Assembly: GCF_026314295.1 (NCBI RefSeq) | Contig: NZ_CP111108.1 | Coordinates: 2,394,514-2,458,513 of the forward strand | From: Caproicibacterium sp. BJN0003 | GTDB taxonomy: Bacteria; Bacillota; Clostridia; Oscillospirales; Acutalibacteraceae | DNA: 64,000 bases | Direction: 5' to 3' | Shown here: positions 36,543-56,706 of the stretch, piece after piece | Position numbering within the stretch: position 1 is the first letter of the stretch | How the letters are laid out: each line of letters opens with the position of its first letter | Notes under the pieces: generated by a model | The model's input: only the letters and a program-made list of their open reading frames with translations | What the model was told of the DNA's origin: nothing | Databases searched by the model: none | Made by a program: the position numbers and the translations under genes

Positions 36543-36602
36543 GAAATTTATGCTATAAAGGAAATAGATCCTTTTAGAATGCAGAATCGGGAGAATTTGA
36601 AA

Positions 36603-38555
36603 ATGTTGAAAAAAAGCAATTCTGCGCTGCCAAAAATAATTGGCGCAGGAATTCTTTGTGTGATTTTATGCTTAACCGGCTGGTACCTTTTTCGCAAATC
36701 ATTTGACTATAGTAATAATGAAACTCCAAATATATTTTCCAGTTCGTTAACTGCAACGCATAACGGAGAGGTTTTAGAAACAGAATGTTCTTCCTCCCTT
36801 CTGATTCACCGGGTGGGAATATGGTGTTCCCTTACTGCCGACGGACAACCCCTTGATCCGTCATTACTCAGCCAAGATTCCACTCCTCGTGGCTTTCTGG
36901 AAGTACAGGCAATCGATTCCCGAGGATCTATCGTTGCAGAAAACTCTGTCAGCTACTCAGACCTCAATGGGAGTTCTTATATGACGATCCTGTCCGGATT
37001 TTCCTATTCTTCCGCAAAGAATGGGAATCTGCGTCTTAGAATTACGGTTCATCAAACAGGAATAGACCCAATTTATCTTAAAACATCCAGAAACGGGCAA
37101 CCGGATATCCTGCTTGTCGGCTATCTGGATTCTACTGATAACCGTGCCCTGCAAAAAGGATTTGCGCTTGTCTTTGCCTTTGTTTTTACAGCGGCACTTG
37201 GTACTTATCTTCTTTTAGCCTTTTCTCATATGAAACTGCATCTGATCTTTTTGATCGCTGCTTTTTTGCTTTCTATGGGATACGAGCTCGTTCTGCCCAT
37301 TCAATCGGCTCCCGATGAATGGGATCATTTTACACAAGCCTACCGCGTTTCCGACCAGATGATGAATTTACCTGCCGGCAGCGCTGAGATTTCCATGCGG
37401 CAGGAGGATTTTGATTTACTGCCTTCGGTTTCTCACACTCCAGATCATTTTGTTTATTCCTATGTTTTTGGTAAGATCGAAAAAATGGCGACTCAAACTG
37501 ATTTAAAAGAAGTTGACGTTTCCCGTATTTCGTGGGACGGACCTACCTACCTTTTGGGTGGAACCGCGATCACACTTGGACGACTTCTTCATTTAAATAG
37601 CGTCACTGTTTTTTACATGGCACGATTTGCAAATTCTCTTCTTTTTTTACTTTTATGTACACTAGCAATCGCCGTAACTCCAGTAAAAAAAGGCTTTTTT
37701 ATCGTTGCCTCGCTTCTTCCAATAGCGCTCCATTTAGGGAACAGTCTCTCTTATGACGTAGAGATGTTCCCGATGTCTTACCTTGTAATTGCGCTCTGGC
37801 TACGAATGTCCTGCAAAGAGGAAGGTCACTTCATTTTCTTAAAAGAGTGGCTCCTTTTTTGTATTCCGCTTATTTTACTTGCCCCTTGTAAAGTTTACAT
37901 CTTGGTTTGCGTCCTTGCGCTTTTCGTTCCAAAAGAAAAATTTGTGAATCCGCACTGGGCCTATGCGCTTCGTACTGGAGCATTTGTGCTGGCCGTTCTA
38001 TTTTTGATTTTTAAAAGCTTTAATTCCGCCTGGTCATCACCATCGGAAATTGCCAGCGTTCATTTTTCTTTGGGATACTTTTTTGCACACCCGACGAGAA
38101 CGATTCAAGTGCTGTGCAACACAATAACAGACTATAAAGCTGCCTTTGTGCATGGAATGATCGGTAGGGCCTTAGGTTGGCTGAATGTTGCTGTTGATTT
38201 ACTTTGGATTTTTATATTCTTTGCACTGCTGCTTTTTTCCTCTCTCTGGACAGAAGAGGAGCTAAACAAGCTACCGGCAAAGTTTTCCCGCTATCAATGG
38301 GTCTTTTTGAGCATCATTCTCCTCGTAATTGCCGGAGTTGTTTATGCCGCTTTTACATGGACCCCGATCGTAAGCGACAGGGTCGAAGGGATTCAGGGCC
38401 GATATTTTCTGCCGATCCTTCCACTGATCATGCTTTTGTGCTGCCAAAAAACATTTATTACAAAAAGAGACGATTGTCGCCGCTTTTTTATGATTGCTGT
38501 CTTTTGTAATTCCTTCCTTCTGATGGAAGTATTCTCAGACAGACTACTTGCTTAG
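36603..38555 (+). CDS. DUF2142 polytopic membrane protein (first of tandem pair)
   Basis: About 650 residues: an N-terminal transmembrane helix (about 13-32), an outer-face domain of about 150 residues, then ten or more hydrophobic segments. PIQSAPDEWDHFTQAYR after the third helix is the DUF2142 signature (acidic-H near the membrane face, reminiscent of GT-C enzymes), and a late GRYFLPILPL segment is also typical. DUF2142 proteins are usual in surface-polysaccharide loci and are suspected glycosyltransferases or polymerases; none of this is shown here. ATG at 36603 is preferred over 36579 because GGGAGA lies 8 bases before it. The next gene is a paralogue. Confidence 0.8.
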   Translation: MLKKSNSALPKIIGAGILCVILCLTGWYLFRKSFDYSNNETPNIFSSSLTATHNGEVLETECSSSLLIHRVGIWCSLTADGQPLDPSLLSQDSTPRGFLEVQAIDSRGSIVAENSVSYSDLNGSSYMTILSGFSYSSAKNGNLRLRITVHQTGIDPIYLKTSRNGQPDILLVGYLDSTDNRALQKGFALVFAFVFTAALGTYLLLAFSHMKLHLIFLIAAFLLSMGYELVLPIQSAPDEWDHFTQAYRVSDQMMNLPAGSAEISMRQEDFDLLPSVSHTPDHFVYSYVFGKIEKMATQTDLKEVDVSRISWDGPTYLLGGTAITLGRLLHLNSVTVFYMARFANSLLFLLLCTLAIAVTPVKKGFFIVASLLPIALHLGNSLSYDVEMFPMSYLVIALWLRMSCKEEGHFIFLKEWLLFCIPLILLAPCKVYILVCVLALFVPKEKFVNPHWAYALRTGAFVLAVLFLIFKSFNSAWSSPSEIASVHFSLGYFFAHPTRTIQVLCNTITDYKAAFVHGMIGRALGWLNVAVDLLWIFIFFALLLFSSLWTEEELNKLPAKFSRYQWVFLSIILLVIAGVVYAAFTWTPIVSDRVEGIQGRYFLPILPLIMLLCCQKTFITKRDDCRRFFMIAVFCNSFLLMEVFSDRLLA

Positions 38556-38586
38556 ATAAATCCCAAAAAATGTTGGAGGAAAACAA

Positions 38587-40581
38587 ATGATAAAGGATTC
38601 TATGAAAAGGATTTTTAACAAAGAAAAAACGAAGAAATTATGGATTCCACTTTTAATCTGCTGTATCTTTGCTGTTGCCGGATGGTTTTTTTACCATTCT
38701 GCATTTGATCAGATCGATACAATTCCTTTTTCTTCAGAAAATATTACATGGAAAGCGGTCGAAGACCGAGAAGTAATAGAATCTTCCTATATAACGGATG
38801 CCAAACTGAAACAAATTTCGATCAGCTGTTCTCTAACAAATGCCGCTCCCACTATCAAGGTTCAAACAAACAACAACCAAAAAGACGATCGGGCAAAGGG
38901 GTATTTAAAAGCAGAACTAATTGATCCTGATAACCATGTTATTAATTCCGTTCTAGTCAATTACTCTGATCTTTCAGAAAGCGCATTTTCCCCCGTTCTC
39001 GCTCATTTTACTTATGCGGCCAACGAAAACCGCCCTGTTAAAATTCAAATCACCTTTCACCAGCAGAACGATATTCCTCTCTCTGTAGCAATCAATCAGG
39101 ACGGTACGCTTTCTGCCTGTATGAACGGTTTTCTTAATACACGGGATAACCATTCCCTCGTAAAAGGATATTGGATCCTTTTTGTACTGCTTTTTGCTGC
39201 GGTTCTTGTGGGTTACCTGATGCTGGCGGTTTTCCATGCAAAACTGCATTGGTGTTTCCTTATCGTGGGCTTACTTCTCATCATGGGATTCGATATGGTT
39301 CTTCCGATCCAATCCGCGCCCGACGAATGGAATCATTATTCGCAGAGCTATCGTTTTTCGGATCATCTGATGGGAAAGCAGGCAGACCCAAGTCTTATTA
39401 CTATGCGCCATGATGATGCTTTTATCTTTGATATGATCGACGAAAATCCAACCAAACAGACTTATTTAACTGTCTTTGGAAATATCGGAAAAAAGATAGA
39501 CGGTGATCCGAATGAGCTTCCAATGCCGGTTGAAAAATTCGGTTGGGATGGTCCCTCCTATATTTTTGAAGGACTTGCAATTACCGCCGGACGCCTCATG
39601 AATTTTAATTATGTAACTGTCTACTATATGGCGCGTGTAGCAAATTCTCTTTTGTATCTGCTGCTTTTTACCCTTGCAATCGCAATTGTTCCCGTGCGAA
39701 AAGGATTTTTTGCCGTTGCCGCTTTATTGCCGATGGCACTGCATTTAGGAAGCAGCTGCTCCTCCGATACACAGATGTTCCCGATGGCATTTCTCGTCTT
39801 TGCCGCGTGGCTGCGGCTCCTTTTAAAGCCGGAAAATGAACCGATCAACATAAAAGACTGGCTTCTCTTCTGCATTCCATTGGCACTTTTAGCTCCATCA
39901 AAAGTCTATGTGCTGTTTTGTCCGCTCATCCTGTTCATTCCGGCTAAAAAATTCAAGGACCGCCATTCTTCCCGTGTTTACCGTTGGGGCTCTCTTGCAA
40001 TCGTAGCTCTCTTCATGCTGCTGCAAACGGGCGGCAATGCGGCTTCTTATACGACACCCGGCGCTAAAACGCTGTTTACTCCAAAATTTTTACTGACCCA
40101 TCTACAGGAAACCTTTTTAATGCTTTTCCAAACCGTTAAGGATTTAAAAGGCACGCTGGTTGAAAACCTAGTTGGAGGGCGCTTGGGTTGGTCGAAGATT
40201 CCAGTAGACCATTTTTGGATCATCACTTTCATTGTCCTTCTGATTCTTTCCATGCTTTGGAAGAAAGAAGAATCTGAGCGCCTACCGCGGCCGCTTACAA
40301 AGCATCGCTGGCAAATGGTCTTTATTATTCTTTTGGTAACCGGCGCAACTGTGTATGCGGCTTTTACATGGACAATGGTTTATTATCGCTTTGTTGATGG
40401 GCTGCAGGGGCGGTATTTCCTGCCGCTTCTGCCGCTCCTTCTCCTTCTGTTCCAGCAAGACAATCTGGTTCCCAAAAAGGGAATCGACCGGCCACTTGTT
40501 TTTTGTGGTATCTTTTGCGACGCATTTTTACTGCTGGAACTTTTCACAAATCTTCTTTCCGGAACACCGGCAATCGGATAA
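38587..40581 (+). CDS. DUF2142 polytopic membrane protein (second of tandem pair)
   Basis: 664 residues with the same layout as the preceding gene: a membrane helix at about 18-36, an outer domain of about 140 residues, PIQSAPDEWNHYSQSYRFSD, FGWDGPSYIFEG, PVRKGFFAVAALLPMALHLG and a terminal GRYFLPLLPLL segment. The two proteins share long runs of similar sequence in the membrane part, while the outer domains differ more, so this is a tandem duplication with divergence outside. GGAGG lies 7 bases before the ATG and only 31 bases separate the genes. It possibly handles a second sugar or acceptor. Confidence 0.8.
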   Translation: MIKDSMKRIFNKEKTKKLWIPLLICCIFAVAGWFFYHSAFDQIDTIPFSSENITWKAVEDREVIESSYITDAKLKQISISCSLTNAAPTIKVQTNNNQKDDRAKGYLKAELIDPDNHVINSVLVNYSDLSESAFSPVLAHFTYAANENRPVKIQITFHQQNDIPLSVAINQDGTLSACMNGFLNTRDNHSLVKGYWILFVLLFAAVLVGYLMLAVFHAKLHWCFLIVGLLLIMGFDMVLPIQSAPDEWNHYSQSYRFSDHLMGKQADPSLITMRHDDAFIFDMIDENPTKQTYLTVFGNIGKKIDGDPNELPMPVEKFGWDGPSYIFEGLAITAGRLMNFNYVTVYYMARVANSLLYLLLFTLAIAIVPVRKGFFAVAALLPMALHLGSSCSSDTQMFPMAFLVFAAWLRLLLKPENEPINIKDWLLFCIPLALLAPSKVYVLFCPLILFIPAKKFKDRHSSRVYRWGSLAIVALFMLLQTGGNAASYTTPGAKTLFTPKFLLTHLQETFLMLFQTVKDLKGTLVENLVGGRLGWSKIPVDHFWIITFIVLLILSMLWKKEESERLPRPLTKHRWQMVFIILLVTGATVYAAFTWTMVYYRFVDGLQGRYFLPLLPLLLLLFQQDNLVPKKGIDRPLVFCGIFCDAFLLLELFTNLLSGTPAIG

Positions 40582-40624
40582 AATCATTTCCGTCTGCAAC
40601 TTATATATTTAGAAAGGATTTTTT

Positions 40625-41488
40625 ATGAGCGCTTTTTTTAAAGAATACGATACAGAAACCCTTTTAAAGCTACAACAGACCCTTACCAAAATGAGTTCTG
40701 CATTGCTGGATTTTTGTAAAAAGCAAGACTTAATTGTTCTTGGTGCTTACGGAACCACCTTAGGCGCTTATCGACACCATGGGTTTATTCCATGGGACGA
40801 TGACATGGATTTTTACATGCCGCGAAAAGATTATGATAAGCTTCTTTCACTCAATGCAAAAGGGATCACCATTCCAGGATACGAAATTCAATCGCTGCAA
40901 AATAACCCCGATTACATCAAGCCCTTTGCAACCCTTCATAAGCCTGGAACGCTTTGTATCAGTCAAGGAGCTGAAAATCTTCCGGGGCATGAGCGAATGC
41001 ATATTTCTATTGATCTTTTTCCGCTGGATTTTATTCCAAGGGACCCGGAACTTGCTAAAAAGATTGCTTCCAAAACGCTTACCCTATGCCGTGCAATGTA
41101 TTTAGGTACCGGACTCCCTATCAATTTCCCTTCAGAAAATCCAGTTTTTTGCACATTTGCGAAATTAGGCTGCTCCGTATTGCGCGGGTTTCTTCATTTA
41201 ACAAAAACCAATGCCGCCGCAATCCAGAAAAAGCTTGATTTTTGGCGAAGCAAAGGGCAAGAAAACCCAAGCGACCGAATGTGTTATTTTGGAGAAGCAA
41301 GATCCCTCGATATTTGGGTAGAGGATCCTGCTAAAAAGGATTCTATATTCCTTCCTTTTAATGGAACACAGATTCCGGTAATGAATCATCCCGAAGAATA
41401 TCTTGCTCGCTCATATGGAAATGATTTTATGAAACTTCCCCCTATTTCTCAACGGCACAATCATGCTGCCGCTGTCCTAAAATTCTAA
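40625..41488 (+). CDS. LicD-family phosphotransferase (phosphocholine-type decoration)
   Basis: 287 residues matching LicD: LGAYGTTLGAYRHHGFIPWDDDMDFYMPRKDYD (about residues 39-72) with the nucleotidyltransferase-like acidic DDDMD motif, then IDLFPLD (about 133), and the C-terminal PVMNHPEEYLARSYGNDFM segment. LicD enzymes transfer phosphocholine, or another phospho-alcohol, from its CDP form to a sugar of a surface glycan. The window also encodes two CTP-type activating enzymes (46.3 and 48.2 kb), which fits. An AGAAAGG site precedes the ATG. Directly downstream is the relic of a second licD. Confidence 0.9.
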   Translation: MSAFFKEYDTETLLKLQQTLTKMSSALLDFCKKQDLIVLGAYGTTLGAYRHHGFIPWDDDMDFYMPRKDYDKLLSLNAKGITIPGYEIQSLQNNPDYIKPFATLHKPGTLCISQGAENLPGHERMHISIDLFPLDFIPRDPELAKKIASKTLTLCRAMYLGTGLPINFPSENPVFCTFAKLGCSVLRGFLHLTKTNAAAIQKKLDFWRSKGQENPSDRMCYFGEARSLDIWVEDPAKKDSIFLPFNGTQIPVMNHPEEYLARSYGNDFMKLPPISQRHNHAAAVLKF

Positions 41489-41514
41489 ACATTATCGACA
41501 GTGATTTGATTTAA

Positions 41515-41697
41515 AACACCACTGATCTTCCTTTTGATTTTATTAGCCTTCCGGTGATGACAAATCCGGAAGATTATCTTTCCTGAGAATATGGGAATGA
41601 TTATCTTGAGCTTTCCCCTTCGGAACAACGGCGCAATCATATGGCCACCGTTCTGGATTTTGGAAAGCAGAATCTGAGAAATGAACGGAGTGCTTAA
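41515..41697 (+). pseudogene. Relic of a second licD gene (C-terminal end only)
   Basis: In the frame of 41551 the DNA reads LPFDFISLPVMTNPEDYLS, an in-frame TGA at 41584-41586, then EYGNDYLELSPSEQRRNH, MATVLDFGKQNLRNERSA and a TAA at 41695-41697. This aligns with the last 45 residues of the intact LicD just upstream (LPFNGTQIPVMNHPEEYLARSYGNDFM..PISQRHNHAAAVL). An upstream in-frame TAA at 41512-41514 closes the frame. So the tail of a tandem licD copy survives with the rest deleted and a stop inside. Its end carries the GGAG used as ribosome site of the flippase gene. Confidence 0.85.
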
Positions 41698-41702
41698 AAC
41701 GC

Positions 41703-42956
41703 ATGTACCGAAAAGCATTGAAGCCGGCTACAAAAAGCGGCATCTTCTTCTGGAATATGGCAGGCAGCATTTGTAACGCTGCCAACACTGTTTTAATGAC
41801 GCTGATCATTACAAGGATCTGCGGCGCCGAAACAGCCGGAATCTATTCGCTGGCTTTAGCGGTCGGGCAAATTGTAAGCCCTGTCGCTTATTTTGAAGTG
41901 CGAAACTTTCAGGTCAGCGATATCCGCCATGAATTTTCTTTTTCGGAATATCACCTTTTCCGACTGATCACAATTATTGCTGCTTCCATTTTTACGGTTA
42001 TCTGGATTCTTCTCAATGGATACAGCGGTGAAAAATTGTCGGCGGTTGTTCTCTGCTGTATTTTTCAAATGATCGAAGCCTACGAAAATGTTTTTCAAGG
42101 ACTTTTACAGCTTAACAACCGTCTCGATCTCTCCGGAAAAAGCTTTACGCTTCGAGTTGTCTTCGATACTATTTTATTTTGGGGTCTATTAATTTTAACA
42201 GAAAACTTTTTCCTCTCCCTACTTGTCTATACGATTTTTGCAGGGATTTGGATTTTCGTGATTACAGTTCCTATTTCAAATCATTTTGAAAAGGCTCACC
42301 GTACCTCCCTATCTTTTGTTCCACAGCTTGCCACTGCATGCTTACCGCTTTTCTTAACTACTTTTCTGATGTCTTACATTATTTCAGCGCCAAAATACGC
42401 AATCGATGAATTTCTTTCGCCGGATATGCAAACCTATTTCAGCATTTTATTTATGCCGGCCTCTGTTGTAAATCTTTTTACGTTTGTCATCTACCGCCTT
42501 TATATCACCAAGATGGCGGAAGATTGGGTAAACGGAAACCGCAAAGACTTTATGAGGCAGGTTTTGTTCCTGCTCCTTTGGATCGCCCTGATCGGCATTG
42601 CCGCTCTTCTGGTCGGCTGGTGGATTGGAATTCCATTTTTAAGCTGGTTTTACGGTCTGCCTCAGCTCTCTGCTTATCGCTCCGAGTTAATGATTGTCCT
42701 GCTAGGTGGAATCTTTGCCGCTACTGCTGGATGGTTTAACGTTGTTTTCACGATTATCCGACACCAAAAAACACTCTTGATCGTCAATGCGGTCTCTGCG
42801 GTCTGCTGCTTCTTGATCGTGCGGCCGATGGTACGAGATTTTGCTCTGCTGGGTGCCTCGTTATGCTATATGGTTTCTATGGCCGTTCTGACACTCGTCC
42901 AAATTATCTTTATTCTGTATTTTTTGAAGCAGTCAAAAAAGGGCACGGAGTTTTAA
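41703..42956 (+). CDS. Polysaccharide flippase-like membrane protein (Wzx/MOP superfamily)
   Basis: 417 residues with about 12 transmembrane helices. The opening SGIFFWNMAGSICNAANTVLMTLIITRICGAETAGIYSLA is the pattern of Wzx/RfbX-type flippases (helices 1-2 with a small polar turn). They move undecaprenyl-linked oligosaccharides across the membrane. It sits between LicD and three glycosyltransferase genes, as expected in an oligosaccharide assembly locus. The start overlaps the end of the licD relic region, with CGGAG 17 bases upstream, a weak spacing; no better start is visible. No Wzy-type polymerase was recognised unless the DUF2142 proteins serve this role. Confidence 0.85.
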   Translation: MYRKALKPATKSGIFFWNMAGSICNAANTVLMTLIITRICGAETAGIYSLALAVGQIVSPVAYFEVRNFQVSDIRHEFSFSEYHLFRLITIIAASIFTVIWILLNGYSGEKLSAVVLCCIFQMIEAYENVFQGLLQLNNRLDLSGKSFTLRVVFDTILFWGLLILTENFFLSLLVYTIFAGIWIFVITVPISNHFEKAHRTSLSFVPQLATACLPLFLTTFLMSYIISAPKYAIDEFLSPDMQTYFSILFMPASVVNLFTFVIYRLYITKMAEDWVNGNRKDFMRQVLFLLLWIALIGIAALLVGWWIGIPFLSWFYGLPQLSAYRSELMIVLLGGIFAATAGWFNVVFTIIRHQKTLLIVNAVSAVCCFLIVRPMVRDFALLGASLCYMVSMAVLTLVQIIFILYFLKQSKKGTEF

Positions 42957-42975
42957 AGAACAGGAGTTTTAAAAA

Positions 42976-43959
42976 ATGGAAAATCCTAAAATCAGTTTTA
43001 TTGTTCCGGTCTATCAGGCCGAAAAAACTTTAAATGCCTGTGTGGACAGTATTCTATCCCAATCCATGCCAAATTTTGAACTCCTTCTAATCGATGACGG
43101 TTCTCCGGATCAGAGCGGAAAAATCTGCGACGAAATGGCACTGCGGGATAATCGGATTCATGTTTTTCATCAAAAAAATGGCGGTGTTTCCCATGCACGA
43201 AATTTGGGGCTTCAAAGAGCTACTGGTGAATTTGTTCTTTTTGTAGACAGCGATGATACCATTTCTCCCAAAATGGCAGAAAAAATGCTGACTGCTCAGA
43301 AAAATCAAAAAGCAGACCTTGTGATCTGCGGAATTTTACATATCTGGAAACAGAAAACGACACAAACCCATTACGGCGATTTTGCTGTTTCTTCTTTACA
43401 GGAGCTAAAGGAAAAGAATGCTTCTCTTTCGTTGGAATATGCGTGGAATGCTCCCTATAATAAACTCTATCTCCGCTCACAGATTCAAAAAGGATTTGAT
43501 GAAAAAGTAGGCCTTGGAGAAGATTTGCTCTTTAATCTTTCTATTTTGCCTGCCTGTCAGAAAATTGTATTTCTTCCAGATTGCCTGTATTATTACGATC
43601 ACCGCAATGAAAATTCTATTACACAGTCCTATCGGGAACAAAAATTTCAGGACGCTTTGCGGGTTTACCACGAGAAATGCGACTTTGATCGAAAAGCTTT
43701 TGGAGAAACCTATGTTCCAACGGCAGAAAGCGCTCTTCTCTGCGGAGATGTTACCCGCTGCATTCAGCGTCTTGTTCAAAAAGGTAGCAAATCTTCTGCA
43801 GAAGAAAAGCAGATCATTGAATCCTGGCTTTGTAATTCGGAAGTCAAAGAAGCTTCCAAAATCATGTACCGTCAAAGTCCAACCTTTCTTGCAGTCTGGT
43901 TTCTCATTCATTTTAAAATGGCCAGACTGATGCGAACCGCTTTTCGCCTACAAAAATAG
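42976..43959 (+). CDS. Family 2 glycosyltransferase (soluble GT-A)
   Basis: 327 residues with a clear GT-A domain: ISFIVPVYQAEKTLNACVDSILSQSM, LIDDGSPDQSGKICDEMA, NGGVSHARNLGL and the DSDD metal-binding motif at about residues 92-95. WNAPYNKLY and GEDLLFNL follow, typical of EpsJ/WcaA-like capsule transferases. It adds a sugar to a lipid-linked oligosaccharide; donor and acceptor are unknown. It has no transmembrane segment and is expected at the cytoplasmic membrane face. It lies 20 bases after the flippase gene with an AGGAG site. Confidence 0.9.
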   Translation: MENPKISFIVPVYQAEKTLNACVDSILSQSMPNFELLLIDDGSPDQSGKICDEMALRDNRIHVFHQKNGGVSHARNLGLQRATGEFVLFVDSDDTISPKMAEKMLTAQKNQKADLVICGILHIWKQKTTQTHYGDFAVSSLQELKEKNASLSLEYAWNAPYNKLYLRSQIQKGFDEKVGLGEDLLFNLSILPACQKIVFLPDCLYYYDHRNENSITQSYREQKFQDALRVYHEKCDFDRKAFGETYVPTAESALLCGDVTRCIQRLVQKGSKSSAEEKQIIESWLCNSEVKEASKIMYRQSPTFLAVWFLIHFKMARLMRTAFRLQK

Positions 43960-43985
43960 AAAATCCATTTTGGAGTTGAAACGAT

Positions 43986-45131
43986 ATGACTTACTGTTTT
44001 TTTTCGGCGCAATATCTTCCCTCTTTCGGCGGGGTGGAACGCTATACTTTTAATCTCGCGCGGGAACTGATCGCCCGCGGCGAAAAATCCATTGTCGTCA
44101 CCAGTGAAAGGCCCGGGCTTTCTCCACATGAAATTGATTCCTATGGGATCGAAGTTTTCCGGGTTCCCACTCATCTTTTGATGGGCGGGCGGTTTCCCGT
44201 TGCAAATGGAGGGCCTGCACTTAACCATTTATTAGACGACATCATTGCTCGCTGCGATCGCGCGGTAATTCAAACAAGGTTTTATCCGCTCTCTTATTTT
44301 GCAGCAACCCGCTGCCATAAAGCAAAAATTCCATTTATTGTAATCGATCACGGTGCCGGCCATTTAAATCTTGGAAACCCGATCGCAAATCAGTGCGGAG
44401 AATGGTATGAACACATAATTACAGCCAACTTAAAGAAAAAAGTCCCCGCCTTTTATGCCGTCAGCCACGCCGGATGTGATTGGCTCCATCATTTTAAAAT
44501 TGAATCGCGCGGCGTTCTCTATAATTTTATTGACCCACGGATCATTAAATCTGCTACCGATGATCTTGACCCTCTAAAAACACGGGAAAAATACGGCTTA
44601 CCAAAAGACCGTCCGATTATCCTTTTCACCGGACGTCTGGTAGAAGAAAAGGGCGTTTTACCGCTTGCGAAAGCGATTTCTCTTCTTCAAAAGGAAGAAA
44701 ACCCTCCCGTTGCTGTTTTCGCAGGGAGCGGTCCCAGCGAAGAAGCGCTTCAAAAAGAGGGGGATTTTGTTTATCTCTTAGGGACCTTGGAACAAAAAGA
44801 GGTCTTTGCTCTTTTAAAAGCCAGTGAGATTTTCTGTCTGCCCAGCCGCAGTGAAGGAATGTCGACTTCCGTATTGGAAGCAGCTGCCTGCGGATGCTAT
44901 GTCATCACAACAGACCGCGGCGGCAGTAAAGAGCTGATTTCTTCTCCACAATATGGGACCATTTTGGAAAATACCGAACCAGAAACCATTGCCGAAACGA
45001 TTCGAAACCTGCTTTTATTTCCCGAAAAAAGGGAAACTGCAGCGGCCGCTGCGAAAGAAAAAGTTCTTCATGGATTTACTTACGCTTCTACCTGCACTGC
45101 ACTGATGGAGATTCCATGGGAATCTCTATAG
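43986..45131 (+). CDS. Family 4 glycosyltransferase (GT-B)
   Basis: 381 residues with the GT-B two-domain fold. The N-terminal part has FGGVERYTFNLARELIARG. The C-terminal domain begins near residue 200 with ILFTGRLVEEKGVLPLAKAI, then AGSGPSEEAL, the SRSEGMSTSVLEAAACG nucleotide-sugar site with the EX7E pair, and a GG loop. It is a retaining transferase of the GT4 type. Start ATG at 43986 with GGAG upstream. It is the last gene of the first transcription block; a separate extended -10 precedes the next gene. Confidence 0.9.
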   Translation: MTYCFFSAQYLPSFGGVERYTFNLARELIARGEKSIVVTSERPGLSPHEIDSYGIEVFRVPTHLLMGGRFPVANGGPALNHLLDDIIARCDRAVIQTRFYPLSYFAATRCHKAKIPFIVIDHGAGHLNLGNPIANQCGEWYEHIITANLKKKVPAFYAVSHAGCDWLHHFKIESRGVLYNFIDPRIIKSATDDLDPLKTREKYGLPKDRPIILFTGRLVEEKGVLPLAKAISLLQKEENPPVAVFAGSGPSEEALQKEGDFVYLLGTLEQKEVFALLKASEIFCLPSRSEGMSTSVLEAAACGCYVITTDRGGSKELISSPQYGTILENTEPETIAETIRNLLLFPEKRETAAAAAKEKVLHGFTYASTCTALMEIPWESL

Positions 45132-45160
45132 CCCTTGCTTATCGAGTTTTTGTTTTCAAG

Positions 45161-45169
45161 TGCTATAAT
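45161..45169 (+). promoter_or_regulatory. Extended -10 element ahead of the GT2/DUF2304 segment
   Basis: TGCTATAAT is an extended -10 box, 33 bases before the ATG at 45202, in the 70-base gap after the GT4 gene. No good -35 is seen. It may start the transcript of the right-hand half of the locus. Confidence 0.45.
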
Positions 45170-45201
45170 CTGTAGTACAATAAAAATTTAGGAGAAATTG
45201 C

Positions 45202-45942
45202 ATGATCACAGGAAAGGATGTTCTTAATTTGCGAACTCTGATTATTATTCCTGCCTATAATGAGGCCCAAAATATTGTCCGCGTTGTGGACAACCTGATT
45301 CAGAATTTTCCGCAATATGACTATGTAGTCGTCAACGACGGCAGTCATGACCAAACCGCTCAGATCTGCCGCGATCACGGTTATTGTTTAATTGATCAGC
45401 CAATCAATCTAGGACTTGCCGGTGCATTTCAAACCGGAATGAAATATGCAATGCAGAATGATTACGATGCTGCAATTCAATTTGACGGCGACGGACAGCA
45501 TCGTCCTGAATTTATCGGAGCCATGGAAGAAAAGATCAAAGAAGGCTATGATGTTGTGATCGGCAGCCGTTTTGTCTCAGCGGAAAAGCCTAAAACTCTG
45601 CGGATGTTTGGAAACAATCTGATCGAAACTTTTATTCATATGACAACCCATAAAACAATCACCGACCCTACCAGCGGAATGCGAATGTTCAGCCGCCGGG
45701 TGATTCGAATTCTTGCAACTGAAATCAACTATGGTCCCGAACCGGATACAATCGCACATCTGATTCGCAGTGGTGCAAAAGTCTGCGAAGTACAGGTGAA
45801 AATGGATGACCGAATTGCTGGAGAAAGCTACCTAAATTTATCTCGGAGTATCCGCTACATGGCAACGATTTGTATCAGCATCGTATTTATCGGATGGTTT
45901 CGGCAAAAAGTTGACCTTGGAAAAGAGGAGGTTCTCTCATGA
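45202..45942 (+). CDS. Family 2 glycosyltransferase, dolichyl/polyprenyl-phosphate mannosyltransferase-like
   Basis: 246 residues: TLIIIPAYNEAQNIVRVV, VVNDGSHDQTA, LGLAGAFQTGMKYA, QFDGDGQHRPEFI and the SGMRMFSRRVI segment. This is the DPM1/DPG-synthase-like group that usually transfers a sugar to a lipid phosphate or serves in rhamnan-type polymers. No long C-terminal membrane part is present, only a short hydrophobic helix near residues 218-232. The gene overlaps the DUF2304 gene by 4 bases. This GT2-DUF2304 pair is a recurrent arrangement in polysaccharide loci. Confidence 0.88.
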   Translation: MITGKDVLNLRTLIIIPAYNEAQNIVRVVDNLIQNFPQYDYVVVNDGSHDQTAQICRDHGYCLIDQPINLGLAGAFQTGMKYAMQNDYDAAIQFDGDGQHRPEFIGAMEEKIKEGYDVVIGSRFVSAEKPKTLRMFGNNLIETFIHMTTHKTITDPTSGMRMFSRRVIRILATEINYGPEPDTIAHLIRSGAKVCEVQVKMDDRIAGESYLNLSRSIRYMATICISIVFIGWFRQKVDLGKEEVLS

Positions 45943-46280
45943 CGATCTGGTTTCGAGTTCTGCTGCTTTTAGCAGCTATCCTTTCTCTTCAGCTTGTTTT
46001 ACGAAATATTCGTAAATCAAAACTTCTGATCTCCGATAGCCTCTTCTGGATCTTCTTTTCCGCCATCTTGGTCATTCTGGCCATTTTCCCACAGATTGCT
46101 TACGTAGTCTCTGATTTATTGGGGGTCCAATCTCCAGTAAATCTTGTCTATTTGGTTATCATTGCGCTTTTGATCTGGCGTGTTTTTAAACTGTATCTGC
46201 GTGTCTCTTCCATGGATACAAAATTAAAAGAGCTTACTCAGCGAATCGCGCTGAACGAAAAAGCAACTCATTCAAAATGA
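45939..46280 (+). CDS. DUF2304 small membrane protein
   Basis: 113 residues with three hydrophobic segments (about 4-22, 32-55 and 65-85), a small basic loop (RNIRKSKL) and a helical charged tail. It matches the DUF2304 layout (SDSLFWIFFSAILVILAIFP). The ATG overlaps the stop of the GT2 gene. The partner transferase and this protein probably act together at the membrane, by analogy with GtrA-like subunits; the exact function is unknown. Confidence 0.85.
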   Translation: MTIWFRVLLLLAAILSLQLVLRNIRKSKLLISDSLFWIFFSAILVILAIFPQIAYVVSDLLGVQSPVNLVYLVIIALLIWRVFKLYLRVSSMDTKLKELTQRIALNEKATHSK

Positions 46281-46303
46281 ATCTAAAGGAGTGAATTTGT
46301 GAA

Positions 46304-48106
46304 ATGCAGGCAATTATTTTGGCCGCTGGAATGGGAAAGCGACTAAAGGAACTAACGCAAGACAACACCAAATGTATGGTAAAAGTAAACGGAATCACTC
46401 TGATTGAACGCGCGCTCACTCAACTCGATCAGCTTTCTCTTAACCGTATTATTATTGTGGAAGGGTACGAGGGGAAAAAGTTAATCAACTTTATTAAGAC
46501 GCTTTCTGTTAAGACTCCCATTACCTTTGTTGACAATCCTATTTACGACAAGACAAACAATATTTATTCTCTATGGCTTGCAAAAGACTACCTTTTGGAA
46601 GATGATACTTTGCTTTTAGAATCGGATATCATTTTTGAAGATTCTGTTCTGCATGCATTGACGGACGATCCCAGAGATACGTTGGCACTGGTTGATCGTT
46701 ACGAAAGCTGGATGGACGGCACGGTCATGCAAATTGACAAAAATGACCGAATTCTTTCATTTGTTCCTGGAAAAGATTTTGATTTTAAGAATACGGATTC
46801 TTACTATAAAACAGTAAATCTTTATAAATTCGGCAAGGAATTTTCCCGCACACATTATGTGCCGTTCTTGGAAGCCTACTCTAAAGCGCTAGGAAACAAT
46901 GAATATTATGAGCAGGTCCTTCGGGTAATCGCTATGCTTGATAATCCCGGAATTTACGCAAAACGACTTGAGGGGCAGCGCTGGTACGAAATTGACGATA
47001 TTCAGGATCTTGATATCGCTTCTTCTCTTTTTTCTTCGAATGATGAAGAGCTTCTTTCCTCTGTCGAAAGCCGTTATGGCGGATATTGGCGCTATCCAAA
47101 GCTTCTTGATTTTTGCTACCTCGTTAACCCTTATTTCCCTCCTCAGAAAATGATCAACGAGATGCAGTCGAATTTTGTATCTCTGCTGACCCAATATCCT
47201 TCCGGCATGAAGGTTAACAGTCTTTTGGCTGCACGAAATTTTAATCTTCATTCCGATGAGATTTTAGTAGGAAACGGTGCCGCTGAGTTAATTAAATCAT
47301 TTATGAGCTTTCAAAACGGCAAAATCGGTGTTATTCGCCCCACCTTCGAAGAATACCCCAATCGCTACAGTCCCGAAAAAGAAGTTATCTTCCGTCCTAA
47401 TAATGCAGACTTTTCCTATACAGCCGATGATTTAATGTCATTTTTTTCAGACAAAGGAATCTCTACATTAGTTTTAATTAACCCGGATAACCCCAGCGGC
47501 AACCTCATTCCTAAAAAAGATTTACTGCGTTTGCTCGCTTGGTGCAAAGAAAAATTTATCTGCTTACTGCTCGATGAATCTTTTGCTGATTTTTCTCAAC
47601 AGGATGCTTCTCTATTGGAACAATCTCTGATTTTAGCTAATCCAAATCTTTTCGTCATGAAATCCATCTCGAAATCTTATGGTGTTCCCGGAATTCGTCT
47701 GGGCGTTTTTGCAAGCGGAAACAAAGAACTGATTGCTTCGATGAAAAAAGACGTAGCAATCTGGAATATCAACTCCTTCGGTGAATTTTTCATGCAGATC
47801 GAAGAAAAGTACAAAAAAGATTATTCCGCTTCTCTTTTGAAGATTAAAGAAGCACGTAAAAAATTTGTATCACAGCTCTCCTCCATACCGCAGCTTCGGA
47901 TCATTCCATCAGAAGCAAACTATGTAATGGCAGAGATTGTTTCTCAGAAATGGACCGCTCTTTCATTAACCAAAGAATTACTCAGTAAAAATAACATTCT
48001 GATCAAAGACCTTACCAAAAAGGTAGGGAAGCAGTATATTCGTATTGCTGTTCGCAATGAAACAGACAATCAAAAGTTGACTAACTGTCTCAAAAAGCTT
48101 TTCTAA
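46304..48106 (+). CDS. Fusion of a sugar-phosphate/choline-phosphate-type nucleotidyltransferase and a PLP aminotransferase-fold enzyme
   Basis: 600 residues in two parts. Residues 1 to about 240 form a nucleotidyltransferase: AIILAAGMGKRLKELTQDNTKCMVKVNG (LicC-type P-loop-like start), LLLESDIIFED (metal-binding Asp) and YKTVNLYKFGKEF. From about 260 a type I PLP fold follows: VGNGAAELIKSFM, the NPDNPSGN motif at about residue 393, LLLDESFADF, and Schiff-base lysine K457 in SISKSYGVPGIRLGVFA. The PLP half resembles HisC and the CobD threonine-phosphate decarboxylases. It may make an amino-alcohol phosphate from a phospho-amino acid and activate it with CTP; this is inference. The ribosome site AAAGGAG lies about 12 bases from the ATG. 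Confidence 0.85.
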   Translation: MQAIILAAGMGKRLKELTQDNTKCMVKVNGITLIERALTQLDQLSLNRIIIVEGYEGKKLINFIKTLSVKTPITFVDNPIYDKTNNIYSLWLAKDYLLEDDTLLLESDIIFEDSVLHALTDDPRDTLALVDRYESWMDGTVMQIDKNDRILSFVPGKDFDFKNTDSYYKTVNLYKFGKEFSRTHYVPFLEAYSKALGNNEYYEQVLRVIAMLDNPGIYAKRLEGQRWYEIDDIQDLDIASSLFSSNDEELLSSVESRYGGYWRYPKLLDFCYLVNPYFPPQKMINEMQSNFVSLLTQYPSGMKVNSLLAARNFNLHSDEILVGNGAAELIKSFMSFQNGKIGVIRPTFEEYPNRYSPEKEVIFRPNNADFSYTADDLMSFFSDKGISTLVLINPDNPSGNLIPKKDLLRLLAWCKEKFICLLLDESFADFSQQDASLLEQSLILANPNLFVMKSISKSYGVPGIRLGVFASGNKELIASMKKDVAIWNINSFGEFFMQIEEKYKKDYSASLLKIKEARKKFVSQLSSIPQLRIIPSEANYVMAEIVSQKWTALSLTKELLSKNNILIKDLTKKVGKQYIRIAVRNETDNQKLTNCLKKLF

Positions 48107-48172
48107 TTTTATGCCCCCATGTTCAAAATCTCATAAAAAACAAATAAAAATGAACAGATTGGACGAACTATC

Positions 48173-49984
48173 ATGCTTTCTAAACTTCAATTTGATATTC
48201 TATATTTTCTGCTAAAGAAAAATTCCTCTTTTTCTCCCTCTCAGCGAGAACTTTCAGAAACTTTTTCTGTTTCTCTTGGAAAAATTAATTCCTGTTTAAA
48301 GGAGTTAAAGGCCTCTGGTTTAATCAATGATGCGCTTTGTATTACACAAAACGGAAAACAGGCTTTACTTCCCTACAAGGTTCAAAATGCAGTGATTATG
48401 GCAGCCGGCATGAGCTCCCGCTTTGCACCGCTTTCTTATGAAAAGCCAAAGGCTCTTTTAAAGGCTCGCGGCGAAATTTTGATTGAGCGGCAGATTCGTC
48501 AGCTGCAAGAAGCTGGAATCAACGATATTACGCTTATTGTCGGCTATATGAAAGAAAAAATGTTTTATCTGGCCGATAAATTTCATCTAAATTTGGTCGT
48601 GAACGAAGACTATTATCGCTATAATAATCCTTCTTCTTTAATGCGGGTCGTCGATAAACTCAAGAATACCTACATCTGCTCCTCTGATGATTACTTTACC
48701 CAAAATGTTTTTGAACCATATGTTTATCAAGCTTATTATGCGGCTGTCTATTCCCCTTCTAAAACAGATGAATACTGCATGAAGGCAAACCGAAAAGGAA
48801 AAATTATTTCGGTATCCATCGGTGGTCAGGCCGCATGGTATATGACGGGTCATGTTTATTTTGACCAGGAGTTCAGCAGCAATTTTGTTCGTTTAATGCA
48901 GCAGGATTATGAAAATCCCGAAACCAAAACTCAACTTTGGGAAAACTTTTATATGCGCCATTTAAATGAACTCACACTTTATTTAAAGCCGTATCCTTCC
49001 GGCGTTATTTACGAATTCGATTCTCTTTCGGAACTGCAGAAATTTGACCAAAGCTATGTTGAAAATATTGATTCTGATATTTTTCACAATATTCAAAAAA
49101 TTCTCTCCTGCAAAACAAAGGATATTCAGAAAATTGAACCAATTAAAGCCGGCATGACCAATACTTCTTTTTCCTTCTTTTGTGCTGGAAAAAAGTATGT
49201 TTACCGCCACCCAGGTATTGGAACAGATTCCTATATTAACCGAAAAGCAGAAGCCTGGGCCATGCATGCTGCAAAAGAGCTGAAGCTGGATCCTTCCTTT
49301 CTCTACATGGATGAAAAAAGAGGCTGGAAGCTTTCTTCCTTTATTAACGGCGCAAAGGCCATGGATTATCATAATCCCTCACAAGTAGAACATTCCCTAG
49401 AAATGGTCCGAACGCTTCACGCTTACCCCCAAAAAAGTCCTTATTCCTTCGACATTTGGAAAATGATTCACAACTTTACCTCTCAGATCGAGCAAAAAGG
49501 GCGCGATCATTTCGAAGATTACCAGACCCTCTATAAAAGGACCAAAGAGCTTTATGCCTTGGCAGAAGCAGATGAAATTCCTAAATGTCTCTGTCACTGT
49601 GACTGCTATGATCAAAACTTTTTAGCCAACGAAAATGGCGATCTTTTTCTGATTGACTGGGAGTATGCCGGAACAGCTGATCCTGCATGGGATTTAGGAA
49701 CCTACCTTGCCTGCTCTGACTATTCCTTACAGCAAGCTAAAAAGATTTTATCGATCTATTTACAGCACGATCCCAGCCAAAAAGAGCTTCGGCATTACTT
49801 TGCCTATACTTCTATTTCCGCTTATTACTGGTTTTTATGGGCGATCTACCAAGAAAGCATGGGAAAAAGCGTCGGAGAATATCTTTACATTTGGTACCGT
49901 TATACCAAAGAATATGGAAATGTCGCATGGAATCTTTATCATTCTGATCGAAATGGAGATGAAATGAATGAAGCCGCAAACTGA
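48173..49984 (+). CDS. Winged-helix/LicC-like cytidylyltransferase/LicA-like choline kinase fusion
   Basis: 603 residues in three parts. Residues 1 to about 65 form a winged helix (FDILYFLLKK, SQRELSETFSVSLGKINSCLKELKASGLI). Residues from about 70 are a LicC-type nucleotidyltransferase (NAVIMAAGMSSRFAPLSYEKPKALL). From about 310 there is an aminoglycoside-phosphotransferase-like choline/ethanolamine kinase with CHCDCYDQNF (catalytic Asp near 477) and LIDWEYAG for metal binding. LicA phosphorylates choline and LicC makes CDP-choline, the donor for LicD. Both steps are fused in one protein here. The winged helix may sense substrate or bind DNA; this is unproven. The ribosome site is weak (TTGGACG). 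Confidence 0.9.
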   Translation: MLSKLQFDILYFLLKKNSSFSPSQRELSETFSVSLGKINSCLKELKASGLINDALCITQNGKQALLPYKVQNAVIMAAGMSSRFAPLSYEKPKALLKARGEILIERQIRQLQEAGINDITLIVGYMKEKMFYLADKFHLNLVVNEDYYRYNNPSSLMRVVDKLKNTYICSSDDYFTQNVFEPYVYQAYYAAVYSPSKTDEYCMKANRKGKIISVSIGGQAAWYMTGHVYFDQEFSSNFVRLMQQDYENPETKTQLWENFYMRHLNELTLYLKPYPSGVIYEFDSLSELQKFDQSYVENIDSDIFHNIQKILSCKTKDIQKIEPIKAGMTNTSFSFFCAGKKYVYRHPGIGTDSYINRKAEAWAMHAAKELKLDPSFLYMDEKRGWKLSSFINGAKAMDYHNPSQVEHSLEMVRTLHAYPQKSPYSFDIWKMIHNFTSQIEQKGRDHFEDYQTLYKRTKELYALAEADEIPKCLCHCDCYDQNFLANENGDLFLIDWEYAGTADPAWDLGTYLACSDYSLQQAKKILSIYLQHDPSQKELRHYFAYTSISAYYWFLWAIYQESMGKSVGEYLYIWYRYTKEYGNVAWNLYHSDRNGDEMNEAAN

Positions 49985-50144
49985 TTTTGAAAAAGAACAA
50001 ATGAAAGAAATTGCACGTCGGGTTGAGTATCTGGAAAATAATTCCGACATGGAATCAAGTGATTTCAGCCGCGGAAACTGGATTGCTGTATGGTGTACAA
50101 TTATCGGCAGTCTTGCATTGTTTGTATGGGGTCTGTTCGTCTGA
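49968..50144 (+). CDS. 58-residue single-span membrane peptide next to the NCS1 permease
   Basis: A short open frame that overlaps the end of the kinase gene by 17 bases. It encodes a polar helix (KPQTDFEKEQMKEIARRVEYLE, about residues 2-24), a linker and one transmembrane helix (NWIAVWCTIIGSLALFVWGLF, about 37-57). GGAG sits 9 bases before the ATG. The layout (cytoplasmic amphipathic helix plus C-terminal span) matches small accessory subunits encoded beside permeases. It sits directly before the NCS1 gene with a 34-base gap. The function is inferred from position and shape only; it is not an annotated family I recognise. Confidence 0.7.
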   Translation: MKPQTDFEKEQMKEIARRVEYLENNSDMESSDFSRGNWIAVWCTIIGSLALFVWGLFV

Positions 50145-50178
50145 TTTGAAATTTTTAAAAGGCAGTTTATGAAGGAAT

Positions 50179-51600
50179 ATGAAAGAGAAAAGCAATCGAG
50201 AAAAGCTGATTGAACAGGAAACAACGCTGGGAATTGCACCACTTTTGCCGCAGGAACGAAAATACGGATTTTTGGATGCTTTTTTAATTATCAGCGGATA
50301 TGCAATCGCCACGTGGTGCTATACACAGGGAGCTACTGTTGCAGGGCTCTTGGATTTTAAACAATTAATTGCCAACACCTTTGGAATTAATATTTTAGTT
50401 TTAGCAATTGTTTCCCTTCCAATTTTATTTTCCGTCCGTTATGGAATTGATGTTTGGATTTGGTTTCGCAGCATTTTTGGATTAAATGGCTGCAAAATAC
50501 TTACTGTTTTAGCCGTGCTTGCTAATTTTCCATGGTATGCCGTATGTGCAGAATTATTTTCATCCTCTATGAGCAATCTGTTAGCAATGGCAGGCATTAT
50601 TATTCCAGAATCTTTTCAGCCATTTTTAGGAGTCGGTTCTATCCTTTTAGGTACAGCCATTGCAATCGGCGGCCCAACAGCAATTCAGAAATCAACCCGT
50701 ATTATGGTTCCCTCCATGCTGGGGGTCGGCATTATCGTTGTTATCATTGCAATGACCTCTGTTCCAACTTCTGAGATTCTCAACTATCAGCCGGATCTTA
50801 GTGCCTATCCAGGAGGACGACAAGAAGCTTATATGCGTGCATTAGAGCTAAATATTGCTTTTGCTTTCTCATGGTCGGTCGCAATGTTTGTTCTTCCGCG
50901 ACTCTGCAAAAAAGAAAAGCATGCATATTGGGCCACTGTTACAAGCTATGGAGTTGTTGCGCCGTTTTTCTGTTTTGCCGGCGGTGTTCTCGCAATTGCA
51001 ATGTTTGTTAAATTCGGAGTGATGAGCGATGACCCCACTTATATGCTTGCAAACCTTGCTTCTCCTCCTGTTGCACTGCTTTCTCTTGTACTTGTGGCAT
51101 TTGCTAATATCGGAACACAGGGCGTCGGTTCTTACATGAATGCGCTTGTTCTCAAATCTTCTTTTCCAAAAGTAAAGTACAATACATTCGTATTTTTACT
51201 TGCGGCTTATGTTTTGTTTCTGACAGTTTGGAATAAGGTGATTGAATATTTCAGCTCTTTTCTCGCGGTAGAAACTTATCTTTATGCCCCTATTATGGCT
51301 GTGCTTGTGGTGGATTTCTTCTTTGTAAAACATCAGCACCTCTCTTTACGAGACGCTTATTTTCTCAATTCTGATCGATATCGTTTTACCCATGGATTTA
51401 ACTTGATTGGGCTTTTTAGCCTTGTGATCGGATTTGTTTCTGCACTGTTGATTTTTAATCCGATTTCCGGGGAAATATATTCTCCAATTTTCTATTATGT
51501 TGGTGCATCCTCTGTTTCCTTCTTTACTGCAGGCATTGTTTATCTGATTGCCTGCAAAACAGCCCCTGGAAAAAGCTATATGAAACTTGATTCTAAATAA
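50179..51600 (+). CDS. NCS1-family permease (cytosine/purine/allantoin type)
   Basis: 473 residues with 12 predicted transmembrane helices. The N-terminal RKYGFLDAFLIISGYAIATWCYTQGATVAGLL corresponds to the conserved first segment of nucleobase-cation-symport-1 proteins (CodB, PucI, Mhp1), and NIGTQGVGSYMNAL near residue 313 to the later conserved helix. NCS1 members carry cytosine, purines, hydantoin, thiamine or related amines with Na+ or H+. Its place directly after a choline-kinase fusion suggests it supplies the amine or alcohol substrate of that enzyme, replacing the LicB carrier, but this is not shown. GAAGGAA is the ribosome site; a strong terminator follows. Confidence 0.85.
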   Translation: MKEKSNREKLIEQETTLGIAPLLPQERKYGFLDAFLIISGYAIATWCYTQGATVAGLLDFKQLIANTFGINILVLAIVSLPILFSVRYGIDVWIWFRSIFGLNGCKILTVLAVLANFPWYAVCAELFSSSMSNLLAMAGIIIPESFQPFLGVGSILLGTAIAIGGPTAIQKSTRIMVPSMLGVGIIVVIIAMTSVPTSEILNYQPDLSAYPGGRQEAYMRALELNIAFAFSWSVAMFVLPRLCKKEKHAYWATVTSYGVVAPFFCFAGGVLAIAMFVKFGVMSDDPTYMLANLASPPVALLSLVLVAFANIGTQGVGSYMNALVLKSSFPKVKYNTFVFLLAAYVLFLTVWNKVIEYFSSFLAVETYLYAPIMAVLVVDFFFVKHQHLSLRDAYFLNSDRYRFTHGFNLIGLFSLVIGFVSALLIFNPISGEIYSPIFYYVGASSVSFFTAGIVYLIACKTAPGKSYMKLDSK

Positions 51601-51624
51601 TTGTTCTTGCTTTTTTGAATCCAA

Positions 51625-51674
51625 AAGGGAAGCCTGATAACATAAAAAATCATGTTATTGGGCTTCCCTTTTTC
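51625..51674 (+). terminator. Terminator after the NCS1 permease gene
   Basis: AAAGGGAAGCC with GGCTTCCCTTT, extended by TGATAACAT/ATGTTATT, forms a stem of about 18 bp followed by a T-run. It closes the surface-glycan locus. Confidence 0.88.
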
Positions 51675-51712
51675 ATTTGTCTTTGTTCTTTTATTACAGC
51701 GTTTCATTCTTA

Positions 51713-52474
51713 TTAAGAAATAAACGCTGTAAAACCGATTTCTCCGTGATGAATCCCCTGTATCGCAAACCCGTCGTTATGTACTTCTCCAAAAAGTTCC
51801 AGCATATCGCCAAGCTTACTTTCTTTCTGATAATTGATCTGCACATTATGGTAGTTTCGAAAAGTTTCCGGTAAAAAGTCTTCAATAATATCTCCGTAAA
51901 TCGTATTCGTCAGATGTCCATTACGGTCAAGGTCACTGTACCGAATCGGGCGATCTCCCAACTTTGGCATCTCTCCAAAGCGCAGCCGTACAGGACGTTC
52001 CTTTTTTTCTGCCTGCAGCGGACAGAATATCCGGTATTCATAAATTTTGTCCGGCCGAAGTGGTTTATGTTCCCGAAAATCCACGACTACACTTACCTGT
52101 AAAATTCGGACAATTTCTTTTCCCTCTGATTGAAAAGAAAACTCTCGATAAAACTGAACGCCGTTCGTCCCCAAAGGACGCGTTACGATTGTTAGTTGTT
52201 CGTTGCGCTGCGGCATGTGGTGAATCGTCACCTGGTTTGTCGTAATCAAAAAAGCTTTCTGCTCTTTCATTAACCATTCATAGCCCATGCCGATTCCATC
52301 CATATGCTCTTCGCCAGTTTCCTGCTCCATCCGCAGCAAAGCTGAAAGCCGTATATTTCCGGCGGCACCGATTTGATAGCTTGCTACCCGTGCCTTCCGC
52401 TCAAACTTGGCAACAGCGATCCCCGTTTTCGGATTTACATATGGATCTGCTTTTCTGATCTCTTCATCCGTCAT
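51713..52474 (-). CDS. Acyl-ACP thioesterase
   Basis: 253 residues with two hot-dog domains (PF01643 type). The N-terminal one has RLSALLRMEQETGEEH, and the second the RYSDLDRNGHLTNTIYGDI segment with catalytic Asn/His positions. It hydrolyses acyl-ACP to free fatty acid and so adjusts chain length or supplies fatty acid. ATG at 52474 is preferred over 52498 because GGGAGG lies 8 bases before it. It is transcribed after serS across a terminator and is otherwise a single gene. Confidence 0.88.
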   Translation of the reverse strand: MTDEEIRKADPYVNPKTGIAVAKFERKARVASYQIGAAGNIRLSALLRMEQETGEEHMDGIGMGYEWLMKEQKAFLITTNQVTIHHMPQRNEQLTIVTRPLGTNGVQFYREFSFQSEGKEIVRILQVSVVVDFREHKPLRPDKIYEYRIFCPLQAEKKERPVRLRFGEMPKLGDRPIRYSDLDRNGHLTNTIYGDIIEDFLPETFRNYHNVQINYQKESKLGDMLELFGEVHNDGFAIQGIHHGEIGFTAFIS

Positions 52475-52506
52475 CTGAAAAACCTCCCTCTTTTGCAAAT
52501 TTTAAG

Positions 52507-52559
52507 ACAGGGAATCCTTAGAAAGACAGCTCATTTCTGTCCTCTCAAGGATTCCCTGT
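52507..52559 (-). terminator. Terminator between serS and the thioesterase gene
   Basis: ACAGGGAATCCTT and AAGGATTCCCTGT form a perfect 13-bp stem with a 27-base loop that has a small internal hairpin. The T-tract on the minus strand is weak. Confidence 0.7.
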
Positions 52560-52579
52560 TCTTGATTTTTGTTCCGATC

Positions 52580-54768: not shown

Positions 54769-54772
54769 TACT

Positions 54773-55546: not shown

Positions 55547-55652
55547 TTTGCTCCACCTCCCCCAATTTTCTAAAATTGGACTTGGTTTTTATTATATCAC
55601 TTCTCTCTTTTTGAGACAACCATCTTTGCTCTTTTATCCAGATGTTTTTATA

Positions 55653-55668: not shown

Positions 55669-55675
55669 GCGCGCA

Positions 55676-56703: not shown

Positions 56704-56706
56704 TTT

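Follow-up and report, generated by a model that had tools for sequence, protein, structure and literature searches.

What would two fused enzymes predicted to activate small alcohols, encoded next to one another, supply to the LicD-family transferase in the same gene run? We asked this of positions 36579-51600 of a 64-kb stretch of Caproicibacterium sp. BJN0003 (the window; NZ_CP111108.1, positions 2,394,514 to 2,458,513), occupying one end of a genome of 2.46 Mb on a single contig. Our answer, to which we assign a probability of roughly 0.55, is that the cluster encodes two makers of cytidine diphosphate (CDP) donors, one predicted to yield CDP-choline and the other CDP-ethanolamine, which would decorate a likely surface glycan. 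From the gene content and order, domain relationships, conserved residues and licD2 remnant described below, we infer the substrates, the direction of the reactions, the glycan and the pairing of LicD with donor. Choline would enter through an NCS1-family permease, be phosphorylated by the LicA domain of one fusion (fusion B) and then be converted to CDP-choline by its LicC domain, with its winged helix perhaps serving sensing or regulation. The pyridoxal phosphate (PLP) domain of the other fusion (fusion A) would decarboxylate O-phosphoserine to phosphoethanolamine, which the nucleotidyltransferase domain of the same protein would turn into CDP-ethanolamine. LicD proteins would transfer each phospho-group onto a sugar of a lipid-linked glycan, for which the flippase-like protein would be the exporter.

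Fusion A consists of a nucleotidyltransferase (residues ~1-245) followed by a PLP domain (~250-600), the same order of cytidylyltransferase and PLP domain as in PntC-AEPT. The nucleotidyltransferase carries a Glu/Glu pair as in Tde-PntC, in contrast to the Asp/Asp of LicC, and the PLP domain belongs to class I/II (PF00155) rather than to class V, that of the PntC-AEPT transaminase. By sequence, the PLP domain is closest to SMUL_1544 (6oux), ahead of CobD; by fold, CobD ranks first and 6oux second. The structure model used was built from 74 sequences (pLDDT 92) and replaced an earlier one built from 16 (pLDDT 72). The domain keeps the CobD/SMUL_1544 fold and the PLP-binding residues, and fusion A scores 175 bits against the curated CobD model, below its cut-off of 290.55; nothing anywhere in the genome exceeds the CobD cut-off. 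The top fold match of fusion A by E-value is 6pd2 (1.1e-28), with a TM of 0.38 over the chain. Phosphoenolpyruvate (PEP) mutase (PF13714) has no match above cut-off in the genome and one partial match of 21.8 bits below it. Given the Glu/Glu pocket, the CobD/SMUL_1544-like PLP domain and the lack of a PEP mutase above cut-off, fusion A is most likely a maker of CDP-ethanolamine de novo from O-phospho-L-serine. An earlier sequence-only reading of this DNA had proposed that fusion A provides a second, de novo aminoalcohol phosphate; the nearest relatives of the PLP domain and the PntC-like Glu/Glu pair speak for that proposal, and the likely identity of the enzyme is among the strongest additions to it. 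Among named relatives, fusion A is closest to P0004 from Caproicibacterium (95%). A cobalamin role of the PLP domain was set low on account of its fusion to a nucleotidyltransferase and its place in a glycan locus. Elsewhere, stand-alone nucleotidyltransferases of the fusion A type (L092:4244-5694, L093:8939-10389, L095:9264-10723) directly adjoin a gene reading like an Asp/Glu racemase.

Two other chemistries would give fusion A a different product. True CobD chemistry, that of the first match by fold, would lead from O-phosphothreonine through 1-aminopropan-2-ol phosphate to CDP-aminopropanol; we consider this unlikely, as SMUL_1544 and not CobD comes first by sequence and the Glu/Glu pocket agrees with that of an enzyme that handles a small amine of two carbons. 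The PLP domain might also be an aminotransferase, forming for example serinol phosphate from dihydroxyacetone phosphate, as Campylobacter Cj1437 reportedly does, with CDP-serinol or another amino-polyol as the donor. Close behind the best matches come entries titled histidinol-phosphate aminotransferase, among them 3ftb, which falls between SMUL_1544 and CobD by sequence, and the known nucleotidyltransferase-PLP fusion PntC-AEPT is described as bearing a transaminase (PMC6697681). Decarboxylases nevertheless lead both rankings, 6oux by sequence and CobD followed by 6oux by fold, and this second chemistry is as doubtful as the first.

For fusion B, residues 72-293 match LicC (1jyk) at 3.5e-36, with Asp105 replaced by Ser and Asp192 by Glu. 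The choline pocket of pneumococcal LicA is described as Tyr197, Trp251, Trp254 and Tyr268 (PMC4364537). All four are kept in fusion B, as Y498, W553, W556 and Y570 counted along the alignment; across 19 aligned sequences the first three are invariant (19/19) and Tyr fills the fourth position in 14, while the position of LicA Glu213 is occupied by Cys in fusion B. Because the four aromatic cage residues are retained, fusion B is most likely a choline kinase/cytidylyltransferase, in line with its earlier reading as a choline-activating LicC-LicA protein. The architecture itself is not special, since proteins that join a helix-turn-helix (HTH) domain to LicC and LicA form a large family (of 7998 candidates scored, 4476 match at E<=0.001); the notion that lic genes are always separate does not hold.

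The neighbourhoods of 11 fusion B relatives from the class were read, and seven contain an identified transporter at most four genes away: an NCS1 protein 48% identical to the window permease (L124), BCCT in three (L128, L130, L131), the EamA type, that of LicB, in L133 and L134, and an APC permease in L125. Near the fusion B relatives of L126, L127, L129 and L132 there are membrane proteins too. Among the 11 operon proteins of the window, to which the search for LicB was confined, none matches EamA. MttB is a neighbour of HTH-LicC-LicA in two loci, L127, which also encodes a B12-binding protein, and L131, which also encodes BCCT and a RACo-like protein, making a link between choline activation and methylamine metabolism possible. 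Transporter and MttB neighbours fit quaternary amines as the predicted substrates of fusion B, with an importer slot that varied families would fill.

The genes themselves form a same-strand run of 11 proteins, from a DUF2142 protein to the permease, with gaps of at most 70 bp except for 214 bp 3' of LicD and 194 bp 5' of the permease. Two genomes of the same genus (L088 and L103) hold the same order at 84-91% DNA identity, so that the arrangement is not due to chance; the stretch retrieved for L088 ends inside the second DUF2142 gene. The features are as follows.

36579..38555, + strand: DUF2142 membrane protein a (PF09913, 129.3 bits; syntenic in L103)
38587..40581, + strand: DUF2142 membrane protein b (PF09913, 122.5 bits; syntenic in L103, partly in L088)
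40625..41488, + strand: LicD-family transferase licD1 (PF04991, 110.5 bits)
41494..41702, + strand: degenerate 3' remnant of licD2, by comparison with the intact licD2 of L103 and L088
41703..42956, + strand: flippase-like membrane protein (13 hydrophobic stretches and a profile-profile match)
42976..43959, + strand: GT2 glycosyltransferase (PF00535)
43986..45131, + strand: GT4-type glycosyltransferase (PF00534/PF13439)
45202..45942, + strand: GT2 glycosyltransferase, polyprenol-phosphate-glycosyltransferase-like by reading (PF00535)
45939..46280, + strand: DUF2304 membrane protein (PF10066, 102.1 bits)
46304..48106, + strand: fusion A, a LicC/PntC-like nucleotidyltransferase with a CobD/SMUL_1544-like PLP domain (PF12804/PF00483 and PF00155)
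48173..49984, + strand: fusion B, winged helix, LicC and LicA (HTH_24, NTP_transf_3 and Choline_kinase/APH)
50179..51600, + strand: NCS1-family permease, a predicted importer of choline or a related compound (PF02133; TIGR00800 below cut-off)
51624..51671, + strand: strong terminator-like hairpin of 20 pairs, appearing as an inverted match in the sisters L088 and L103

The open reading frames, coordinates and single strand given by the sequence-only reading are borne out by frame positions and Pfam matches, but the start of the run lies about 4 kb further 5' than it had supposed, at the two DUF2142 proteins; the run also includes the DUF2304 protein and is followed by the hairpin.

The sisters reveal that a second LicD gene has largely disappeared from the window. 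L088 and L103 each carry two, one 84% and the other 48% identical to the window LicD, and the intact licD2 of L103 matches PF04991 at 125.7 bits; in the window genome, licD1 is the single PF04991 match. A DNA alignment places 763 bp, common to both sisters and absent from the window, between 41489 and 41494, and window positions 41494-41702, within the gap 41489-41702, match the 3' end of licD2 and contain in-frame stop codons. The two LicD genes of the sisters, together with the degenerate remnant, argue for an ancestor probably equipped with two LicD genes as well as two donor makers; of these the window strain retains both donor makers and one intact LicD, having lost most of licD2. It may attach just one of the two groups, or both donors may share one LicD. 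The single LicD noted earlier is thus correct for intact genes, whereas the remnant in 41489-41702 had gone unreported; with the probable ancestral 2:2 design it is new and among the strongest additions.

Of the remaining products, the flippase-like protein pairs by profile-profile comparison, at 92% probability, with a cluster from which one member was tested and matched Polysacc_synt; it had no match in a Pfam search, or among PDB sequences when searched for TacF membership. LicD likewise found no meaningful match among PDB sequences. The GT2 protein at 45202..45942 has matches of 56-59% identity in six loci of fusion A relatives (L006, L013, L022, L064, L069, L073). No riboswitch reached gathering scores within 34500-53000. 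A defence system and a plasmid-borne cassette were considered and rejected: neither fusion has a PADLOC match, and the two fusion genes match no plasmid records at megablast sensitivity. Further along, window positions 53935-59302 read as ParA, two ParB-like proteins, RsmG and GidA/MnmG, and with such neighbours the locus probably sits close to the replication origin.

Neighbours of fusion A were profiled in the best 80 of at least 542 confirmed named loci. In 79 of them fusion A has a frame of 560 aa or more, and L078 is left out of the counts over 79. The neighbour profiles derive from the very loci counted, of which many are related and many cut by contig ends, and Pfam names of neighbour clusters rest on one or two tested members each. 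LicD occurs in 26/79 loci (24 by matches >100 bits) and is the immediate same-strand neighbour in 12. Opine dehydrogenase (PF02317) is present in 24/79 (for example L017:11809-12888), adjacent in 22, and a gene of the ornithine-cyclodeaminase family (PF02423) in 14/79, adjacent in 11; one or the other is found in 37 of the 79 loci and both in a single locus. These reductases are also among the strongest additions to the earlier reading. On a more speculative reading, less likely than not, fusion A, which occurs in many gut and fermentation Clostridia, would open a branch of the lic/pnt scheme with no earlier description, leading within a single protein from O-phosphoserine to CDP-ethanolamine. 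In the nearly half of loci with a reductase gene nearby, that enzyme would join the amine to a keto acid and give surface glycans bearing N-carboxyalkyl-aminoethyl phosphate; the window would be the plain form, with phosphoethanolamine and phosphocholine sharing one glycan and one licD lost. N-carboxyethyl-ethanolamine phosphate is reportedly a constituent of Proteus O14. Opine dehydrogenase has no match in the window genome, a weak negative since control genomes gave none either, and the ornithine-cyclodeaminase family has a sub-threshold match there only.

Other neighbours recur as well. A CDP-glycerol-transferase-like gene occurs in 16/79 loci and a YidC-sulfatase protein in 15/79; in L012:14041-16809, L044:14523-17114 and others, YidC-domain/sulfatase-family fusions adjoin the CDP-glycerol-transferase-like genes. 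L007, L054, L058 and L076 share a run of fusion A with an adjacent reductase gene, an HTH-nucleotidyltransferase, an amidohydrolase (PF07969 in L007) and HTH-LicC-LicA, and L080 has a similar set on the opposite strand. The HTH-nucleotidyltransferase of this run is a predicted third nucleotidyltransferase.

We then surveyed 245 genomes of the class, the window's own included. Full-length fusion A is present in 8 (33 match, 25 of these across one domain only) and fusion B in 12 (18 match), the latter count combining 11 rows of >500 residues with G024 (two rows, one frame). Six one-sided Fisher tests were made, uncorrected and with the own genome excluded, on genomes that are not independent (3/4 of those with both NCS1 and fusion B belong to one genus). 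LicD accompanies fusion A in 5/7 genomes against 68/237 without it (p 0.027) and fusion B in 9/11 against 64/233 (p 0.0004). Close NCS1 relatives go with fusion B (4/6 vs 7/238, p 3e-5) and not with fusion A (0/6 vs 7/238, p 1). Fusion A is also associated with fusion B or any match of the HTH-nucleotidyltransferase type (3/7 vs 14/237, p 0.008), and LicD adjoins fusion A or shares its locus in 3/8 fusion A genomes (own, G186, G077). Within the genus the locus is variable, fusion A being present in 4/11 genomes and fusion B in 3/11.

Several results weigh against the pairing of CDP-choline with CDP-ethanolamine, whose substrates are themselves predicted. Both fusions occur together in only 2/245 genomes, the window genome and G243, where they lie on separate contigs, and their association is not above chance (1/7 vs 10/237, p 0.28); the co-occurrence to which the sequence-only reading had looked is thus weak over the class, and this rarity is a weak point. 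Even within single loci the pair is uncommon: in 7/80 fusion A loci (L007, L023, L054, L058, L076, L078, L080) a fused LicC-LicA matches fusion B across 510 residues or more, the match in L023 beginning at residue 71, without the winged helix. In L135:4919-7576 a PlsC-type acyltransferase domain forms one protein with a relative of the window permease, in L139:6024-8804 the gene next to an NCS1 relative matches a PlsC-type family below cut-off, and L136-L138 have NCS1-relative frames of fused length, judged by length only. Given PlsC-type links in these five loci, the window permease may serve something other than choline import. The earlier placing of a transporter in the position of LicB accordingly gains from the seven fusion B loci and the NCS1-fusion B association and loses from the PlsC links; overall, the model of that reading is partly supported.

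The fused permease relative would also suit donors that feed phospholipid synthesis rather than a glycan, and the promiscuity of NTP_transferase domains would allow a sugar-phosphate donor instead. Either is improbable: CDP-alcohol phosphotransferases are represented in the genome by two matches only (frames of 190 and 240 aa), perhaps just the usual PgsA and PssA, and the operon includes LicD, glycosyltransferases and the flippase-like protein. Least probable of all is that fusion A serves aminoethylphosphonate tailoring as a PntC variant; it shares the Glu/Glu pocket and domain order of Tde-PntC-AEPT, but we rate this reading low, since PEP mutase has no match above the cut-off, and the PLP domain is not a class V aminoethylphosphonate transaminase.

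If fusions A and B do supply CDP-ethanolamine and CDP-choline, many gut Clostridia would produce zwitterionic decorations on their surface with no need for ethanolamine from the diet, by means of a single fused enzyme whose relatives are named aminotransferase in the source annotations. Such decorations matter for immune recognition, for stripping enzymes and for flippase selectivity; a described family of GlcNAc-6-phosphocholine/phosphoethanolamine phosphodiesterases includes a Clostridia group (PMC10704324). The reductases near fusion A would point toward a further, rare kind of decoration, and the loss of licD2 with both donor makers kept offers a natural test of LicD-donor pairing.

Among known systems, the lic pathway of pneumococcus and Haemophilus comprises LicA, LicB, LicC, LicD and the flippase TacF. 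The window resembles it in its predicted choline kinase and CTP:phosphocholine cytidylyltransferase, LicD and flippase-like protein, and differs in that LicA and LicC are fused behind a winged helix, an NCS1 permease stands in place of LicB, and an extra donor maker, fusion A, is present. A LicC-LicA fusion in one chain, not known to include a winged helix, reportedly serves phosphatidylcholine synthesis in Treponema denticola. Pneumococcus is described as having LicD1 and LicD2 (PMC13385700), as against one intact licD here. PntC-AEPT of T. denticola (Tde1415), described as having a LicC-like cytidylyltransferase at the N terminus, bearing Glu104/Glu196, and a PLP domain at the C terminus (PMC6697681), likewise unites both domains in one chain; its PLP domain is a class V aminoethylphosphonate transaminase in a phosphonate pathway with PEP mutase, whereas that of fusion A is class I/II and CobD-like in a genome with no PEP mutase above cut-off, and the domain arrangement differs (TM 0.38). 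Neither a nucleotidyltransferase-CobD-like fusion nor the presence of opine dehydrogenases at such loci was found described in the open-licence literature, a weak negative. SMUL_1544 of Sulfurospirillum multivorans, proposed to make ethanolamine phosphate (PMC4585668), is, by sequence, the nearest protein of solved structure to the PLP domain, but is a stand-alone protein of norcobamide synthesis without a nucleotidyltransferase. CobD, an L-threonine-O-3-phosphate decarboxylase, shares the fold and core PLP residues of fusion A, which differs from it in scoring below the curated cut-off, in being fused to a nucleotidyltransferase and in residing in a glycan locus.

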